Source: Betaproteobacteria bacterium
GTDB taxonomy: Bacteria; Pseudomonadota; Gammaproteobacteria; Burkholderiales; SG8-39
Assembly: GCA_005881595.1 (NCBI GenBank)
Contig: VBBY01000005.1
Span: 1-64,000 of the forward strand
Reading direction: 5' to 3'
DNA length: 64,000 nucleotides
Made by a program: the position numbers and the translations under genes. This document shows positions 2,330 through 28,293 of the stretch, piece after piece (position 1 is the stretch's first letter; each line of letters starts with the position of its first letter). The notes under the pieces were generated by a model. The model had not been told where the DNA came from. It saw only the letters and a list, made by a program, of their open reading frames with translations, and made no database searches.

Positions 2330-3196
2330 ATGGGCGCCAAGACCCTGACCATCGCCGCGCTTGCGGCGATGGCCCTCGCCGGCGGTGCACCGCCCTGCCG
2401 CGCGGCCGAGCCTGCCGGATTGCCCGGGTACCTGTCGGACCGCGGCGACGGCATCCCCACGTCGCTGCTCGGCACCTACATCCGCGAGAAAGAGTTCCTG
2501 TTCTACCCGTTCTATGAGTACACGCGGTTCAGGAATTTCGAGTACAGCCCGAAGGACCTTGGTGTGCGCGGTCCCAGGGAAGACGACAAGTTCTTTGGCA
2601 AGCGGGTCGAGCGCGAGGGGTTGGTCTTTCTGGCCTACGCCTTCAGCGACTCGCTCGCGGTCGAGTTCGAATCCGCAGTGTACAGCTCGGTCGATTTTAC
2701 GATGTCGGCCGACGACAACACCGCCGTGCCGGATCCCCTGCGGGAACGCGGACTCGGGGACACCGAAGCCAATATCCGCTGGAGATACTCGAAAGAGACG
2801 GCGACCCGGCCGGAGGCGATTCTCTTCCTCAAGACGGTCTTCCCGCTGCAGAAGAACAAGGCGCTCCTCGGCTCGAAGCATTTGCAACTCGAGCCGGGCA
2901 TCGTCCTGACCAAGGGCTTTTCGTTCGGCACGCTCGCGTTGCGCGGATCGGCCAACTATGACCGGGGCGAGCGCAAGCTGTCATTCAGCGGGTACGCGGT
3001 CGATTACGTGAAACGACTGAGCCCGGCGTGGCGCGTGGCATTCTCGCTCGAGGGCCACGAGGACGAGCTCTCGGCCATCGGCGAGGTGCAATACACCCTG
3101 AGCAAGAACGCCGTGCTGAAACTAAACAGCGGTTTCGGCGTGACGAAGAAGGCACCGACGTTCGCGCCGGAGATCGGCGTGCTGTTTACCTTTTGA
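2330..3196 (+). CDS. Putative outer-membrane barrel protein
   Basis: 288 residues with a signal peptide ending near PPCRAAEPA. The mature chain has many alternating-residue strands and ends in LFTF with a terminal Phe, the usual signature for Bam-dependent barrel insertion. A tail segment (VLKLNSGFGVTKKAPTFAPE) looks like the last hairpins of a transporter-like barrel. Its specific role is unknown. It is the last gene of the plus-strand run and overlaps the convergent rhomboid gene by 11 bases. Confidence 0.65.
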   Translation: MGAKTLTIAALAAMALAGGAPPCRAAEPAGLPGYLSDRGDGIPTSLLGTYIREKEFLFYPFYEYTRFRNFEYSPKDLGVRGPREDDKFFGKRVEREGLVFLAYAFSDSLAVEFESAVYSSVDFTMSADDNTAVPDPLRERGLGDTEANIRWRYSKETATRPEAILFLKTVFPLQKNKALLGSKHLQLEPGIVLTKGFSFGTLALRGSANYDRGERKLSFSGYAVDYVKRLSPAWRVAFSLEGHEDELSAIGEVQYTLSKNAVLKLNSGFGVTKKAPTFAPEIGVLFTF

Positions 3197-3884
3197 AGGG
3201 AAACCGCCCGCGCCGGTACTGGATCAGCAGCCAGCCGCCCAGCATGCCTCCCAGATGGGCGAAATGGGCGATCCCGGCAGCAGTTCCGGTGATGCCGAAG
3301 AACAGCTCCAGGGCCGCGAAGCCGAAGACAAAGGTGCGCGCCGACATGGGAATCGGCGGAAACAGCAGGATCACCCGGCGATCAGGGAAGTACCCGAAGA
3401 ACAGCTCCAGGGCCGCGAAGCCGAAGACAAAGGTGCGCGCCGACATGGGAATCGGCGGAAACAGCAGGATCACCCGGCGATCAGGGAAGTACAGGCCGAA
3501 CGCGAGCAGCAGGCCGTAGATCCCGCCCGAGGCGCCCACCGTCGGGTACGGCGTGCCGCCCATCCAGCCCGTGACAACCAGGTGCGTGACCGCCGCGGAG
3601 AGCACGCAGGCGAAGTAGTACGCGAGGTAGAAGCGCGAGCCGAACAGCCGCTCGATCTCGCCGCCGAACATGTAGAGCGCGAACATGTTGAAGAGGATGT
3701 GCGCGACGCCGCCGTGCAGGAAGCTGTAGCTGATGAGCTGCCAGGGCTCGAAGCCGGGGCCGGCCTCCAGGCCGGAGCTCACCGGCCAGAGGGCGAACCA
3801 CTCGATGAGCGGCAGGTCGGTCGCCATCTGCAGCAGGAAGACGGCGACGTTGACGACGATCAGCGCCTGGGTGACCGGGGGCAT
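3186..3884 (-). CDS. Rhomboid family intramembrane serine protease with internal duplication
   Basis: 232 residues from the ATG at 3882-3884. Rhomboids cut membrane proteins within the bilayer using a Ser-His dyad. The serine motif GASGGIYG and the histidine motif HFAHLGG are both present, as is the helix HGGVAHILFNMFALYMFGGEIE, given here as HGGVAHILFN then MFALYMFGGEIE. A 33-residue segment (FPDRRVILLFPPIPMSAR plus the TM5 helix) occurs twice in tandem between the Ser and His helices, encoded by a perfect 99-bp DNA repeat. One copy gives the standard six-helix fold. Two copies add a helix and should invert the His helix, so the allele may be inactive, unless the repeat is an assembly error. 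The earlier in-frame start would make the N-terminus unlike the family. Confidence 0.85.
   Translation of the reverse strand: MPPVTQALIVVNVAVFLLQMATDLPLIEWFALWPVSSGLEAGPGFEPWQLISYSFLHGGVAHILFNMFALYMFGGEIERLFGSRFYLAYYFACVLSAAVTHLVVTGWMGGTPYPTVGASGGIYGLLLAFGLYFPDRRVILLFPPIPMSARTFVFGFAALELFFGYFPDRRVILLFPPIPMSARTFVFGFAALELFFGITGTAAGIAHFAHLGGMLGGWLLIQYRRGRFPFKR
3295..3492. repeat. Perfect 99-bp tandem duplication inside the rhomboid gene
   Basis: Bases 3295-3393 and 3394-3492 are identical over all 99 positions; identity stops at both outer edges (3294 versus 3393 and 3394 versus 3493). The unit is a multiple of three, so the frame is kept and 33 residues are repeated. Perfect identity points to a very recent event or an assembly artefact. 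Confidence 0.95.
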
Positions 3885-9299: not shown

Positions 9300-10516
9300 A
9301 TGAAGTTGAATCGCACTGCAGTTGCAGTCGCGCTCGCCATGGCGGGCGGCAGCGCGCTCGGGCAACAGGCTGCCGCCCCCGTGACGGCGGAGACCTCGGT
9401 CCAGATCTACGGGCACCTAGACGTGTCCATCGACGACATCACGAAAGGCATCGCTGGAAAGAGCAGCACAGTGGCTCCTGTCGCTACCATTCCCGCGACC
9501 GGGAAGCTCGGCTACCAGTCCGACATCTCCAGCAATCTTTCTTATCTCGGGGCTCGCGGATCCCAGACGCTCGGGTCGAGCGGACTGAGGGGGGTGTTTC
9601 AGGTCGAGATAGCTTCGTGGGCCTGGCAGGCAGCTGGGGCGCCTTCAAGATCGGCAAAACCGACGCACCCTACAAGCTGTCCACCGCGCGGATGGATCCG
9701 TTCGCCTCCTCCATCGGCGACTACAACAGCATCATGGGCAACACCGGCGGCGACAATCGCGCGGAGTTCGACACGAGGCTGTCGCACGCCGCGTGGTATG
9801 AATCGCCAAACATAAGCGGCTTCCGGGTCAATGCGCTGTTCGCGCCGGGCCAGAACCGGTCCTCCGACAACTCGATCCCCGCCAGCGGCGAACCGAACTG
9901 CACCGGCGGCAATAGCCCTGACCCGGCAAACGGTTGCAACGATGGCTCCTACGGCAATGCGTTGAGCATCGCGGGCATTTACGAGGCGGGCCCGGCCTAT
10001 TTGATCGCCGCGTACGAAAAGCACACCGACGTGAATCGCACCGGAGATGGGGCGGCGGTCGGCATCGGCGACGAGCAGGCGTTCAAGGTGGGCGTCCAAT
10101 ACAGCTTGCCGACCAACACGACGCTCAACTTCATCGTCGAGCGGATGACTCGTCACGGATCGGTCGCCGACTTCAACGAGCGGCAGCGCAGCGGCTTCTG
10201 GCTCGCCGCGACGCAGAAGGTCACGGCCAGCGATGACGTGAACATCGGCTGGGCGCACGCCGGCAAGACGCCCGGCACGCCCGACGGGCCGCTCGACAAC
10301 AAGGCGAATATGCTGGCCCTCGGCTACAAGCATCACTTCAACCGGCAGGCCAACTGGTATGCGGTTTATGCCCGCCAGGACAATAAGGATGGAGCGCACT
10401 ACGACCTCGGCGCGAGCGGGCATGGCATCACGACCGACTGCCACGACGCGGCCGGCAACTGCTACCCCGGAGGCAAGATACAAGGCCTTTCGGTCGGCAT
10501 GCAATACAACTTCTAG
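9300..10516 (+). pseudogene. Gram-negative porin (Porin_4 family), disrupted by internal deletion/frameshift
   Basis: The first frame runs from ATG 9300 (signal peptide LNRTAVAVALAMAGGSALGQ, then VQIYGHLDVSID) to about 9610, ending GVFQVE. The porin then continues in another frame as RDSFVGLAGSWGAFKIGK and ends properly in VGMQYNF at 10516. In related porins about 15-25 residues (part of loop L2/L3) lie between FQVE and RDSFVGL; here they are missing and the two halves meet at a shared GGTCGAGAT. The loss is 3n+1 bases, so translation of the first half runs off frame to 9815. General porins admit small hydrophilic solutes. Probably a pseudogene or an assembly collapse. Confidence 0.85.
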
Positions 10517-10539
10517 GCCCGATGCGTTAGCGCAGGTTC

Positions 10540-10575
10540 GAGGCGGGCATCGTATGATGTCCGCCTCGATTTTTA
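10540..10575 (+). terminator. Intrinsic terminator after the porin gene
   Basis: GAGGCGG (10540-10546) pairs with CCGCCTC (10561-10567), with inner pairing CATC/GATG and a GTAT loop, followed by GATTTTTAC. It ends 18 bases before the next start codon, so it also lies in the leader of the 10594 gene. Confidence 0.82.
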
Positions 10576-10593
10576 CAGACCTGGATTTTCATC

Positions 10594-11022
10594 ATGAAAC
10601 GCATCGTTTGCGTTGCAATGCTGCTGGCGGCGCTTTGCACCGCCGCGCCGCCGGCGCTGGCGGTGTTCGTTTTCAGGGCGGGCGATACAGTCTACGTCGA
10701 CGGCAAGCGCTACACCTGGGAGGAGTGGAAGAAAATCCGCGATACCTATCAACAGCAGCCGACGCCGACTGCCGCGGTTTCTGTTCCATCTGAGGCTCCC
10801 CGGGCTGCGTCCTGCATCACGACGATCTACTACGATGAGTTTCCGTCCCAGGACGAGCGCTTCCAATGCACCTCCGGCCTCGGTGCCGTGACCCGGGAAG
10901 AGATCCTGCAGCGCGGCTGGAAAGTCGACCTGATCGAGAAAATTCCCACCACGCCCGGCCAGCCGGCGCAGTCGCCGCGCGGGCTTCCGCTATTCCTCTA
11001 CAAGCTGGTCATCTCCAGATAA
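10594..11022 (+). CDS. Small exported protein of unknown function
   Basis: 142 residues with a clear signal peptide (MLLAALCTAAPPALA). The mature protein has a short segment YVDGKRYTWEEWKKIRD, a Pro/Thr linker, and a C-terminal part containing two cysteines (SCITTIYY and FQCTSG) that could form a disulphide. No family recognised. It lies immediately after the porin terminator and four bases before a small lipoprotein gene, with which it is probably co-transcribed. Confidence 0.7.
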   Translation: MKRIVCVAMLLAALCTAAPPALAVFVFRAGDTVYVDGKRYTWEEWKKIRDTYQQQPTPTAAVSVPSEAPRAASCITTIYYDEFPSQDERFQCTSGLGAVTREEILQRGWKVDLIEKIPTTPGQPAQSPRGLPLFLYKLVISR

Positions 11023-11026
11023 CGCC

Positions 11027-11203
11027 ATGATCCGAGCCGCCTTGCTTCTCGCCGCCCTGCTCGCCGCCGGATGCGCCGCTCCACCACAGTCCGATCAGAG
11101 CCCCAGGCCGAGAGCGCAAAGACAGACCGACATGTTGTGCATGAACGATTGCCTGGGCAGCGGCGGGGCGCGCGAGTTCTGTCAGGATCGATGCACTGAC
11201 TAG
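11027..11203 (+). CDS. Small Cys-rich lipoprotein
   Basis: 58 residues, starting at the ATG four bases after the previous stop. It begins MIRAALLLAALLAAGCAAPP, a signal peptide with a proper lipobox (LAAGC), so it should be lipid-anchored. The mature part is short and ends with three further cysteines in MLCMNDC and FCQDRC. No homologue recognised, but the lipobox and tight spacing support a real gene. Confidence 0.68.
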   Translation: MIRAALLLAALLAAGCAAPPQSDQSPRPRAQRQTDMLCMNDCLGSGGAREFCQDRCTD

Positions 11204-11317
11204 GCGTCACCGGCAGACCATCCGGTCGCCCATCGACGTGCACGACAGGCGCGCGCGCGCCGACCTGGCGAAGGGCCTCCTTGTAGTACCATCACGCCGG
11301 GAGGGGCGCCTGACACT

Positions 11318-12271
11318 ATGCGGATTCTGCTCGTCTTCGCGTTGCTGGCTCTGGCGGCGGGCCTCGCCCAGAGCCAGCAATATCCCACCAAGCCGGTGCG
11401 CATCATCGCGCCGTTCGCTCCCGGCGGCGGCACCGATTTCATCGCGCGGCTGATCGCGCAGAAGCTCACCGAGCGGCTCGGCCAGCAGGTGATCGTCGAG
11501 AACAAGCCCGGCGCCGGCGGCAATCTGGGAGCCGAGTTCGCGGTCAAATCGGCGCCCGACGGCTACACCCTGCTGCTGGTGGCGGGCAGCTACACGGTGA
11601 ACCCGAGCCTGTACAAGCTGTCGTTCGATCCGGTGAACGACATCACGCCGATCGTCCAGCTCTCGCAGGGGCCGTTCGTGGTCGCGGTGCATCCTTCGGT
11701 GCCAGCGAACAACCTGAAGGAGCTGATCGAGCTGGCGCGGCGCCAGCCGGACAAGCTGTCGTACGCGTCGGCCGGCTCGGGCAGCATCACGCACCTGGCG
11801 AGCGAGCTGTTCCTCGACATGGCCAAGATCAAGATCGTCCACATCCCGTACAAGGGCACCGGCCCGGCGCTGAACGACACGATCGCGGGCAGCACGCAGC
11901 TGATTTTCGGCAGCGTCTCGACCACGCTTCAGTTCATCAAGTCCGGCCGCCTGCGCGGCCTGGCCGTCACCACCCCGCGACGCATCTCCGCGCTGCCTGA
12001 CCTTCCCACCGTCGCCGAGGCGGGAGTGCCGGGTTACGAGGTCGTGCTCTGGCACGGCCTGGTGGCCCCCAAGGGCGTGCCGCGCCTGATCGTGGATCGC
12101 CTCAACCGCGAAGCCAACGAGGTGCTGAAGGCGAAGGACATGGGCGACCTGCTGGCCACCGACGGCGTGGCCCCGGCCGGCGGCACGCCCGAGCAGTTTC
12201 GCGCGGTCATCAAGGCGGACATCGGGCGCTGGCGCGGGGTCGTGAAGCAGGCCAACATCAAGCTGGACTAG
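11318..12271 (+). CDS. Bug-family tricarboxylate/solute-binding receptor (TctC-like)
   Basis: 317 residues with a signal peptide ending around GLAQSQQ. The mature start YPTKPVRIIAPFAPGGGTD, followed by VENKPGAGGNLGAEF and SAPDGYTLLL, is the hallmark of Bug periplasmic receptors of the tripartite tricarboxylate transporter (TTT) system. These bind carboxylates in a Venus-flytrap fold and deliver them to TctAB. No TctA or TctB genes are in the window, as is usual for the many orphan Bug genes of Burkholderiales. The ligand is unknown. Confidence 0.93.
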   Translation: MRILLVFALLALAAGLAQSQQYPTKPVRIIAPFAPGGGTDFIARLIAQKLTERLGQQVIVENKPGAGGNLGAEFAVKSAPDGYTLLLVAGSYTVNPSLYKLSFDPVNDITPIVQLSQGPFVVAVHPSVPANNLKELIELARRQPDKLSYASAGSGSITHLASELFLDMAKIKIVHIPYKGTGPALNDTIAGSTQLIFGSVSTTLQFIKSGRLRGLAVTTPRRISALPDLPTVAEAGVPGYEVVLWHGLVAPKGVPRLIVDRLNREANEVLKAKDMGDLLATDGVAPAGGTPEQFRAVIKADIGRWRGVVKQANIKLD

Positions 12272-12276
12272 CGGGC

Positions 12277-13119
12277 CTAGAGCGTCGGGCCCGGCTGCGC
12301 GAGCGCGTGCTCGGCGAGCTGCAGGACGAGCCAGTCGTAGGCGTCGTCTACCGAGTCGGTGCGGTGCACCAGCTCGACGTCGCGCGCGTCGATGGTGCCG
12401 TGGCGCACCAGGGCGTCGAAGTCGATCACCTGCCGCCAGTACTCGGTGCCGAACAGCACCATCGGCAGGGGCTTGCGCATTTTGCGCGTCTGCACCAGCG
12501 TCAGCAGCTCGAACAGCTCGTCGAGCGTGCCGTAGCCGCCGGGAAACACGATCACCGCCTTCGCCAGGTAGGCGAACCAGAACTTGCGCATGAAGAAGTA
12601 GTGGAAGTGGAAGGCGAGCTCGCGCGTGACGTAGGGGTTGTCGAATTCCTCGGTCGGGATCGAGATCGTCAGGCCCACGTTCACGCCGTGCGCCTCGGCG
12701 GCGCCGCGGTTGGCCGCCTCCATGATTCCCGGCCCGCCGCCGGTGCACACCACGAAGCGGCGCTCCTTGCGGTCGAGCTCCTTGGACCAGCTCGTGAGGC
12801 GGAAGGCGAGGCTGCGCGCGGCCTCGTAGTAGATCGACATCTTGAGCGCCATGCGCGCGGCCTCGACGCCGGCGCCGGCGGCCTCCGCCGCGCGCAGCGC
12901 CTCTTCCGCCGCCTCGCGCGACTTCAGGCGCGCCGAGCCCATGAACACGATGGTGTCGTCCACCTTGTGGTAGTCGAACCGGCTCTTTGGCTCGAGGTAT
13001 TCCGCCAGGATCCTCAGCTCGCGGGCGTCCTTGCTGCTCAGGAAGCCCGGGTTGCGGTAGGCCTGGACGGGCCGTTTCGGGCGTTCGGTCATGGCGAGTC
13101 CATCCGGAGTGGAATTCAT
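12277..13119 (-). CDS. LOG-family protein (TIGR00730-like nucleotide phosphoribohydrolase)
   Basis: 280 residues from ATG 13117-13119, or 271 from the internal ATG at 13092. The Rossmann-like core has VVCTGGGPGIMEAANRGA and PGGYGTLDELFELLT, the PGGxGTxxE signature of LOG proteins once called lysine decarboxylases. Characterised members hydrolyse cytokinin riboside 5-monophosphates or AMP/ppGpp-related nucleotides. This longer form with an N-terminal helical extension is common in proteobacteria; its substrate is not established. Convergent with the Bug gene five bases away. Confidence 0.87.
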   Translation of the reverse strand: MNSTPDGLAMTERPKRPVQAYRNPGFLSSKDARELRILAEYLEPKSRFDYHKVDDTIVFMGSARLKSREAAEEALRAAEAAGAGVEAARMALKMSIYYEAARSLAFRLTSWSKELDRKERRFVVCTGGGPGIMEAANRGAAEAHGVNVGLTISIPTEEFDNPYVTRELAFHFHYFFMRKFWFAYLAKAVIVFPGGYGTLDELFELLTLVQTRKMRKPLPMVLFGTEYWRQVIDFDALVRHGTIDARDVELVHRTDSVDDAYDWLVLQLAEHALAQPGPTL

Positions 13120-13154
13120 AATCCTACGATGGACTCGCCGGCCCGACTGAAATG

Positions 13155-13178
13155 AAAAGGGCGGCCCATTCGCCGCCC
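13155..13178 (-). terminator. Intrinsic terminator after the small barrel gene
   Basis: Read on the minus strand: GGGCGGC, loop GAATGG, GCCGCCC, then TTTTC. A seven-pair GC stem and short T run 25 bases after the stop of the 13204-13848 gene. Confidence 0.8.
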
Positions 13179-13203
13179 CTGGAACAGCCCCGTTCTTCCT
13201 TTC

Positions 13204-13848
13204 TCAGAACCGGTAGCCGACTCCAATCGAGTACACGTCGGCGTGGCCCTTGCCGGTGTCGTCGCTGCCGAGCTGCGCGTAGCGGTCCCAGCCGGCCCTG
13301 GCGAACACGTTGCGGTTGAAGTCGTACATCGCCCCGGCGCCGATCAGCAGGCCGGTCCTCGAATCGGAGGCATTGCCGACCGCGACCGCGCCGGTGTCCG
13401 AGCTCGCCTCCAGGTCGGTCTTGGTGCGGGCCACGCCGGCCTTGCCGTACACCGACCAGCTCTGCCGCAACGGCAGGATGCCGATGCCCGACAGCGAGAG
13501 CGCGTGCGCCTTGTACTTCCCGCTGATCGTGTCGGCCGCCGGGCTGGACGCCGCGGCGCTGTAGTTGAATTCGCCCAGGCGCGTGTAAGCGCCTTCGAGG
13601 GCGAAGTTGCGGTTGAAGAGATAGCCGACGCTGAAGCCCAGGCTCGTGTCGCTGCGCTCGTTGCTGCTCGAGGCGCCGATGCCCTGGTTGGCAAGCGCGT
13701 TGTCGAAGTCGCCGCCGCCCAGGCCGAGGCGGCTGCGGCCGAGGTCGATGCCGCCGTACCAGGCGCTGTCGGCGCTCTGCGCGCGAACCATGCCGGCGCC
13801 GATCGAAAGTGCGATCGCCGTGCTTGCAATGATGGCCTTCTTGTACAT
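13204..13848 (-). CDS. OmpA/OmpW-like eight-stranded outer-membrane barrel protein
   Basis: 214 residues with a signal peptide (MYKKAIIASTAIALSIGAG, then VRAQS). The chain has about eight beta strands with short turns and ends in SIGVGYRF, a classic barrel C-terminus. Motifs WYGGIDLGRSR and FSVGYLFNRNFALEGAYTRLG fit the OmpA_membrane / OMP_b-brl family. A strong AAAAGGAGC site precedes the ATG. Upstream, inside the end of the histidine kinase gene, lie GTAAA repeats like those before the Spy-like gene, so it is probably controlled by the adjacent CpxR-like regulator. Confidence 0.85.
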   Translation of the reverse strand: MYKKAIIASTAIALSIGAGMVRAQSADSAWYGGIDLGRSRLGLGGGDFDNALANQGIGASSSNERSDTSLGFSVGYLFNRNFALEGAYTRLGEFNYSAAASSPAADTISGKYKAHALSLSGIGILPLRQSWSVYGKAGVARTKTDLEASSDTGAVAVGNASDSRTGLLIGAGAMYDFNRNVFARAGWDRYAQLGSDDTGKGHADVYSIGVGYRF

Positions 13849-15940: not shown

Positions 15941-15981
15941 GGCGCCGAATGATACCGGTGAGACCTTCGCGATGTCCTGTC

Positions 15982-16007
15982 TTTACCTAGCTTTACCCAA
16001 GGTTTAC
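15982..16007 (+). promoter_or_regulatory. CpxR-like box in the divergent regulator/chaperone promoter
   Basis: Three TTTAC elements on the plus strand at 15982-15986, 15992-15996 and 16003-16007. The first two are separated by five bases and the last two by six, so read on the other strand they give GTAAA-N6-GTAAA-N5-GTAAA. This matches the known CpxR recognition pattern GTAAA-N5-GTAAA. The block ends 52 bases before the Spy-like start codon and starts 41 bases before the regulator start. Confidence 0.75.
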
Positions 16008-16059
16008 GGCGCTTGATGGCGGCGTCGCGGAGAGTGTCTCTGTCAAACCAGGAGGCCTT

Positions 16060-16497
16060 ATGACCCGTCACAGCAACCCGCATGTCCGCAGATTCCTCAT
16101 CGCCAGCAGCCTCGCTTTCGGCCTGGGCTCCGGCGCCCTGGCGCAGCCCGAAGACAGGCCGGGACCGATGCCCTCCCACGGCATGGGAATGCATCGCATG
16201 CTGCGCCACCTCGATCTGAGCGACGCGCAGCGCGACCAGGTGTTCAAGATCTTCCACGACCAGTCGCCGGCAATGCACGAGCGCATGAAGGCGATGCGCG
16301 CCGCGCGCAAGGACCTGGAGAAACTCGCTTTGGCTTCCGCATTCGACCGCGAGCGCGCCCGCGCCATCGCCGACAGCGAGGCGAAGGCGATCGCCGACAT
16401 GGAACTCCTGCGCGCCGAGAGCATGGCGCGCGTGCGCCAGGTGCTCACCTCCGAGCAGCGCGCCAAGCTCGACCAGATGCGCGAGCACCGCCGATGA
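16060..16497 (+). CDS. Spy/CpxP-family periplasmic chaperone-like protein (first copy)
   Basis: 145 residues with a signal peptide (FLIASSLAFGLGSGALAQ). The mature protein is helical and basic, with the LTxxQ-type motifs LDLSDAQRDQVFKI and LTSEQRAKLDQM that define the Spy/CpxP family. Members are periplasmic dimers that hold unfolded envelope proteins or restrain the CpxA sensor. An AGGAGG site lies five bases before the ATG. Divergent from the CpxR-like gene and preceded by CpxR-like boxes; its stop overlaps the next start (ATGA). Confidence 0.88.
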   Translation: MTRHSNPHVRRFLIASSLAFGLGSGALAQPEDRPGPMPSHGMGMHRMLRHLDLSDAQRDQVFKIFHDQSPAMHERMKAMRAARKDLEKLALASAFDRERARAIADSEAKAIADMELLRAESMARVRQVLTSEQRAKLDQMREHRR

Positions 16498-26754: not shown

Positions 26755-28293
26755 ATGTCAAACCTTAAAATTACCCATAGACTCGCGCTCCTGCTCGGGG
26801 TGCTGGTCCTCTCTCCGGTGGTTTGGGCCGGCGCACCGCAGGCCTACATCACCAATCTCAACGACGGCACGGTCTCAGTGATCGACACGGCGAGTAACAC
26901 CGTGATGGCGACGGTGCCGGTGGGGAATTTCCCTAACGGCGTGGCGCTGACGCCCGACGGGGCGCACGTCTATGTGGCGAATGTTGTCGACGGCACGGTC
27001 TCGGTGATCGAAACGGCCGGCAACACCGTGACCGCGACCGTACCGGTGGGGCTGTTCCCATTCGGCGTGGCAGTGACGCCCGACGGCGCCCACGTCTATG
27101 TGGCGAACCAGGGCGGCGGCAACGTCTCGGTGATCGCCACGGCAAGCAATACCGTGACGGCGACGGTGACGGTTGGCCCCAGCCCAACCGGAGTTGCGGT
27201 AACGCCCGACGGGACCCGCGTCTATGTGGCGAACGATGGCGACGGCACGGTCTCGGTAATCGACACCGCAAGCAACGGCGTGATCGCGACCGTGACGGTA
27301 GGGGGCGGCCCGGTGGGCGTTGCGGTGACGCCTGACGGAGCCCGCGTCTATGTGGGGAATTTTTCCGGCAGCACGGTTTCGGTGATCGCCACGGCAACCA
27401 ATACCGTGACGGCGACGGTGACGGTGGGGCTCAACCCGGAGGGCATTGCGGTGACGCCCGACGGGACCCGCGTCTATGTGGCGAACTTCAACGCGAACAC
27501 GATCTCGGTGATCGCCACGGCCAGCAATACCGTAACGGCGACGGTGACCGTTGGCGCCAACCCAGCTGGAGTTGCGGTGACGCCCGACGGCGCCCACGTC
27601 TATGTGGCGAATCAGAACAGCAACAATGTCGCGATGATCGCCACGGCCGGCAACACCGTGACGGCGACGGTGCCGGTGGGTGTCCTTCCCCGTGCCTTCG
27701 GCAAGTTCATCAGCTCCTCGGGTGACGCGACGCCGCCGGTGACGAGCTTGGCCGCGCAGCCCGGAACGCTCAAGGGGCGGAAGTTGATGACCGCGAACGC
27801 GACGCTGACCGTTTCGCCGGGCGGCCTGACGATCCAGACACGATGCTTCGACTCGTTCGGCCTTAACGTCCTTCTGTCGGCGACCGACGATTCCTCCGGC
27901 GTCGCGCAGATCAACTACGGGTCTGCACACTTCGTGCTCGGACAGCAGCCGCCGAATCCTGCGCTCGACCAGAGCATCGCGTCGGCAAGCGGAACGATCC
28001 CGTTCCCGACCACCGGCGTCTTCGTGCTCAACTACGGCGCGGTGGACCTCGCAGGGAACCAGGAAACGACGAAGAGCGCGCTGGTGATGGTGAATTCGTT
28101 CAAGGCGTTTGCGTGCGCGACACAACCGTTCGCCTTGGCAGCGCTCCCGAGCTCCGCAACGGTGACCGTGAGCGGCACCCTGACCAACGGCTCGAAGACC
28201 AAGCCGTTCAGGTTCAAGTTCAAGTACGGACCGCGCTCAGCAGGGCGCGACGGCGATGACGACGAGAACGACAACGACGCCCGCGATGATTGA
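26755..28293 (+). CDS. YVTN-type seven-repeat beta-propeller exported protein
   Basis: 512 residues from ATG 26755, preferred over 26719 because it directly starts a signal peptide (ALLLGVLVLSPVVWAG). Seven tandem repeats of about 42 residues, each of the form VYVAN-GTVSVI-TASNTVTATV-VG-P-GVAVTPDG, form a complete seven-bladed YVTN propeller (about residues 27-320). A distinct C-terminal domain of about 190 residues resembles surface-associated domains and includes cysteines, ending in an acidic tail rich in Asp and Asn. Probably secreted or surface-attached; function unknown. Confidence 0.83.
   Translation: MSNLKITHRLALLLGVLVLSPVVWAGAPQAYITNLNDGTVSVIDTASNTVMATVPVGNFPNGVALTPDGAHVYVANVVDGTVSVIETAGNTVTATVPVGLFPFGVAVTPDGAHVYVANQGGGNVSVIATASNTVTATVTVGPSPTGVAVTPDGTRVYVANDGDGTVSVIDTASNGVIATVTVGGGPVGVAVTPDGARVYVGNFSGSTVSVIATATNTVTATVTVGLNPEGIAVTPDGTRVYVANFNANTISVIATASNTVTATVTVGANPAGVAVTPDGAHVYVANQNSNNVAMIATAGNTVTATVPVGVLPRAFGKFISSSGDATPPVTSLAAQPGTLKGRKLMTANATLTVSPGGLTIQTRCFDSFGLNVLLSATDDSSGVAQINYGSAHFVLGQQPPNPALDQSIASASGTIPFPTTGVFVLNYGAVDLAGNQETTKSALVMVNSFKAFACATQPFALAALPSSATVTVSGTLTNGSKTKPFRFKFKYGPRSAGRDGDDDENDNDARDD
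26833..27711 (+). repeat. Seven 126-bp coding repeats (propeller blades)
   Basis: Each unit encodes one 42-residue YVTN blade. Units are similar but not identical at the DNA level; blades 3, 6 and 7 are closest. In-frame throughout and explained by the protein fold. Confidence 0.88.

Follow-up and report, generated by a model that had tools for sequence, protein, structure and literature searches.

An exact 99-bp tandem repeat between the catalytic helices of a rhomboid protease gene is probably an assembly artefact

As assembled, a bacterial gene for a rhomboid-family intramembrane serine protease contains, between the helices that carry its catalytic serine and its presumed catalytic histidine, a short segment that is present twice. 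The question raised by this locus is whether the doubled segment belongs to the organism, as a new architecture, a switchable allele or a passing mutation, or whether it was introduced during assembly of the genome.

The repeat occupies positions 3295-3492 of the window, that is, of the whole stretch of 64,000 nucleotides analysed, and the perfect 99-bp tandem duplication that had been predicted there was confirmed: the two copies are identical. The array measures exactly 198 bp, or 2.00 copies, with zero mismatches and without a further matching base at either edge (base 3294 is g versus c at 3393, and base 3493 is a versus c at 3394). No other exact two-copy tandem repeat of this kind occurs in the window, and no run of N is found at the site. 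A chance repeat is ruled out by the 99 identical bases, which are far above chance expectation. The repeat lies in frame within the gene, so that the same 33 amino acids, YFPDRRVILLFPPIPMSARTFVFGFAALELFFG, comprising loop 4 and TM5, are encoded twice; at the DNA level, the copies meet where GGGAAGTAC is followed directly by CCGAAGAAC. The doubled loop 4 and TM5 sit between the motifs GASGG (Ser119) and AHLGG (His210). The translation together with the Pfam match agrees with the claim that a rhomboid carries an extra loop and TM5 inserted between its Ser and His helices. Elsewhere in the window, at 26861-27680, there are diverged 126-bp tandem repeats with a period that is a multiple of 3, which resemble a YVTN-type beta-propeller protein.

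Table 1. Positions of the rhomboid gene, its repeat and motifs in the window, and of the other exact two-copy duplications of the same genome.
Feature	Position	Strand	Location	Evidence
Rhomboid-family intramembrane serine protease gene, 232 aa as assembled, ATG at 3882-3884	3186..3884	-	Window	Pfam PF01694, translation, GlpG-like sequence and fold
99-bp copy A, translated first, residues 132-164, loop 4 + TM5	3394..3492	-	Window	AlphaFold helix 149-165, pLDDT about 58-66
99-bp copy B, translated second, residues 165-197, loop 4 + TM5	3295..3393	-	Window	AlphaFold helix 182-198, pLDDT about 89-93
GASGG motif; catalytic Ser119 at 3528-3530	3522..3536	-	Window	Column invariant, 51 aligned sequences
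Presumed catalytic His210, AHFAHLGG motif, TM6	3255..3257	-	Window	Column invariant, 51 aligned sequences
39-bp exact two-copy repeat in rng (RNase G), variable loop	3777-3854		L188, contig C77, own genome	
213-bp exact two-copy repeat in DUF899 gene, doubles part of domain	15964-16390		L237, contig C212, own genome	
1863-bp exact tandem duplication, ends inside leuS and uvrD, spans both gene starts	9904-13631		L188, contig C77, own genome	

The product matched Pfam PF01694 with E=3.4e-29 and 102.3 bits, well above the curated cut-off of 22.6, and it also matched the GlpG proteins of E. coli and H. influenzae by sequence. Both the GxSG serine and the downstream histidine expected of a rhomboid protease are present (Ser119 and His210). 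The protein as assembled departs from the six-helix core with helices in the order TM4-TM5-TM6 and a normal distance between serine and histidine, since this distance amounts to 97 aa and two TM5 helices are predicted; the usual core would be recovered if the repeat were an artefact.

For structure prediction, AlphaFold was given the two-copy protein and an alignment with 50 single-copy relatives. The resulting model has a mean pLDDT of 86, a pTM of 0.83 and a GlpG-like core, and its top structural matches in the PDB were GlpG without exception. Copy B forms a confident TM5, and copy A is placed as an extra helix of low confidence (Table 1). Since the alignment imposes a one-copy fold, the model shows only where the program places the surplus segment and is no evidence that a two-copy protein folds. 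Should copy A span the membrane, His210 would face away from its proper side and the enzyme would be expected to be inactive; under this proviso, the inversion of the His helix that had been argued from an odd number of inserted helices is sound reasoning.

Next, relatives were searched for the same arrangement in 101 genomes, consisting of the window's own and 100 others. Only the window's own gene matched the 232-aa query over its full length. In well-matched relatives, residues 1-164 and 165-232 of the query aligned to overlapping DNA, which indicates that these genes contain a single copy. The spacing from GASGG to HLGG was then counted in the loci of this search together with 80 loci of a second collection, two sets that may share some genomes. 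Among the 107 relatives with readable motifs, the spacing was 64 aa in 101 and 63 aa in 6, versus 97 aa (64 + 33) in the window. Length variants of the Ser-His spacing, which the original prediction had proposed to look for in related strains, were thus absent from these 107 relatives. Two further explanations could be discarded from the same comparison: a chimeric join of unrelated DNA, because relatives carry the two flanks within one and the same rhomboid gene, and an old repeat or repeat family, because the copies are identical and the repeat is absent from the readable relatives. In one related draft genome (G010, contig C364), two near-identical rhomboid genes were observed at 9410-9991 and 11876-12457, 2466 bp apart, with a mismatch within the stretch that can be compared.

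The window comes from a draft genome, probably a MAG, whose 3.79 Mb are divided among 257 contigs, some as short as about 200 bp. We surveyed about 1.67 Mb of it (~44%), window included. In this sampled part, at least five contig pairs dovetail by exact, unmerged overlaps of 41, 68, 82, 83 and 117 bp, and in all five a long ORF spans the join once the overlap is collapsed. For L160/L165, this is the 365-aa frame of a Rieske-type oxygenase, and placing the two contigs end to end interrupts it. The assembly therefore contains neighbouring contigs that share exact overlaps, some shorter and some longer than 99 bp, which is evidence that such ends are present in it and not that any of them was abutted.

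The same survey revealed three further exact two-copy tandem duplications, of 39, 213 and 1863 bp (Table 1). Those in rng and in the DUF899 gene are single copy in the relatives examined. Over a comparable stretch, the rng loop has 75 aa here versus 58-62 aa in relatives, and, as this loop is variable in length, the 39-bp repeat may be real. The 1863-bp duplication appears to leave one intact copy each of leuS and uvrD and could be either real or an artefact. All four lengths are divisible by 3, for which the chance under an artefact is 1/81, or 1/27 for the three intragenic ones. A common k value of assemblers is 99; an origin from a fixed k-mer was not supported, however, given that contig overlaps vary from 41 to 117 bp and that the other duplications have other lengths. 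In a control of 0.59 Mb from relatives, zero exact two-copy repeats of at least 30 bp were found, with about 1.4 expected at the rate of the window's own genome, so that no excess of duplications is demonstrated. Real spontaneous duplications usually arise between short direct repeats. At the four duplications, 0, 0, 1 and 2 additional matching bases were counted at the junction (mean of 0.75 versus 0.78 for random breakpoints in this sequence), and none of the four shows microhomology above chance. In Salmonella, the spontaneous duplications confirmed by experiment all carried 11 bp or more of homology at their junctions, in a study that was pre-filtered on homology (PMC3411829).

Taken together, these results lead us to consider that the second 99-bp copy probably arose during assembly and that the rhomboid gene itself is probably an ordinary one. 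We infer that the site was an abutted join of overlapping contigs: two adjacent contigs would have ended inside one ordinary six-helix rhomboid gene, both ends carrying the same 99 bp, and scaffolding or gap closing would have set the ends side by side with the overlap left uncollapsed. The real product would then be about 199 aa long, a conventional rhomboid protease with a single TM5. This reading is supported by the exact 2.00 copies free of mismatch, the single-copy state of the 107 relatives, the fragmentation of the draft and its five unmerged overlaps, as well as by the three additional exact duplications and the chance-level homology at the junctions. Moreover, false duplications at contig boundaries, of about read length, are a described class of error in vertebrate genomes (PMC8081667); nothing specific was found in the literature on the same error in metagenome assemblies. 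Against an artefact speak the four lengths divisible by 3, because selection on real duplications would keep the frame, the lack of an N run at the site, the rng repeat that could be real and the control that shows no excess. As a caution, when exact two-copy tandem repeats are met in conserved genes of fragmented drafts, contig-end overlaps should be compared before a biological reading is attempted.

The chief rival to this reading is a real and very recent 99-bp tandem duplication in the strain, an ordinary transient mutation whose intact frame would be due to either chance or selection. We regard it as rather unlikely, and the minor share of belief that we keep for it is owed to the lengths in multiples of 3 at four sites, to the variable rng loop and to the control without a shown excess. 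The rhomboid gene pair of the related draft, with its mismatch, indicates in addition that duplications around this gene can be real. The GlpG-like core retained in the model, where TM5 is formed by copy B and the surplus helix of low confidence by copy A, would also suit a real duplication, but this core derives from a single-copy alignment and is not evidence of a two-copy fold. Against this rival, the junction is without microhomology, the copies have not diverged at all and the duplication is shared by none of the readable relatives. If it were real, protease activity would most likely be lowered or abolished by the extra helix before the His helix, or else the duplication would be tolerated with one copy outside the fold.

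We consider it very improbable that the repeat has altered function, whether by giving the rhomboid a seventh helix at a new, internal position or by acting as a slippage switch, in which reversible passage between one and two copies would alternately disable and restore the protease. In its favour, the reading frame is preserved, the loss of one unit from a perfect direct repeat is possible in principle, and gating in rhomboids is performed by TM5 and loop 5 (PMC12615303). However, a length variant occurs in none of the 107 relatives, there are just two copies, similar repeats are present in unrelated genes of the same assembly, and the odd helix, if membrane-spanning, should misplace His210. 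The original prediction had left a switch, a new topology and an assembly error side by side; the assembly error proved to be the best supported, while switch and new topology gained no support, since relatives show no length variant, copy A is of low confidence and copy B is a confident TM5. We would hardly give credence to a real two-copy allele whose rhomboid product has an added internal helix, be it active in a new topology or held in a reversible off state through gain and loss of 99 bp. If it were real and active, a rhomboid could accept a helix between its catalytic helices, contrary to the known terminal additions.

Compared with systems already described, the repeat shares with homotype false duplications (PMC8081667, PMC9516828) the identical, adjacent short copies, absent here from relatives, and a draft assembly with overlapping contig ends of similar length. 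Those duplications were described in vertebrate assemblies, whereas the present case concerns a bacterial draft in which the presumed join is unmarked by a gap. With GlpG (PDB 2ic8 and 2nr9; PF01694), the protein has in common the dyad motifs GASGG and AHxxHLGG, the HGGxxHxxFNM motif in the TM2 region and the core of its model, and it differs, as assembled, by the additional 33-aa unit of loop 4 and TM5 between the Ser and His helices. Finally, as had been stated beforehand, the extra helices of known rhomboids are found at the N or C terminus, in 1+6 or 6+1 arrangements (PMC12615303). These proteins also have a seventh helix on top of the six-helix core, but theirs is terminal, whereas the extra segment of the window protein is internal and lies between TM4 and TM6.
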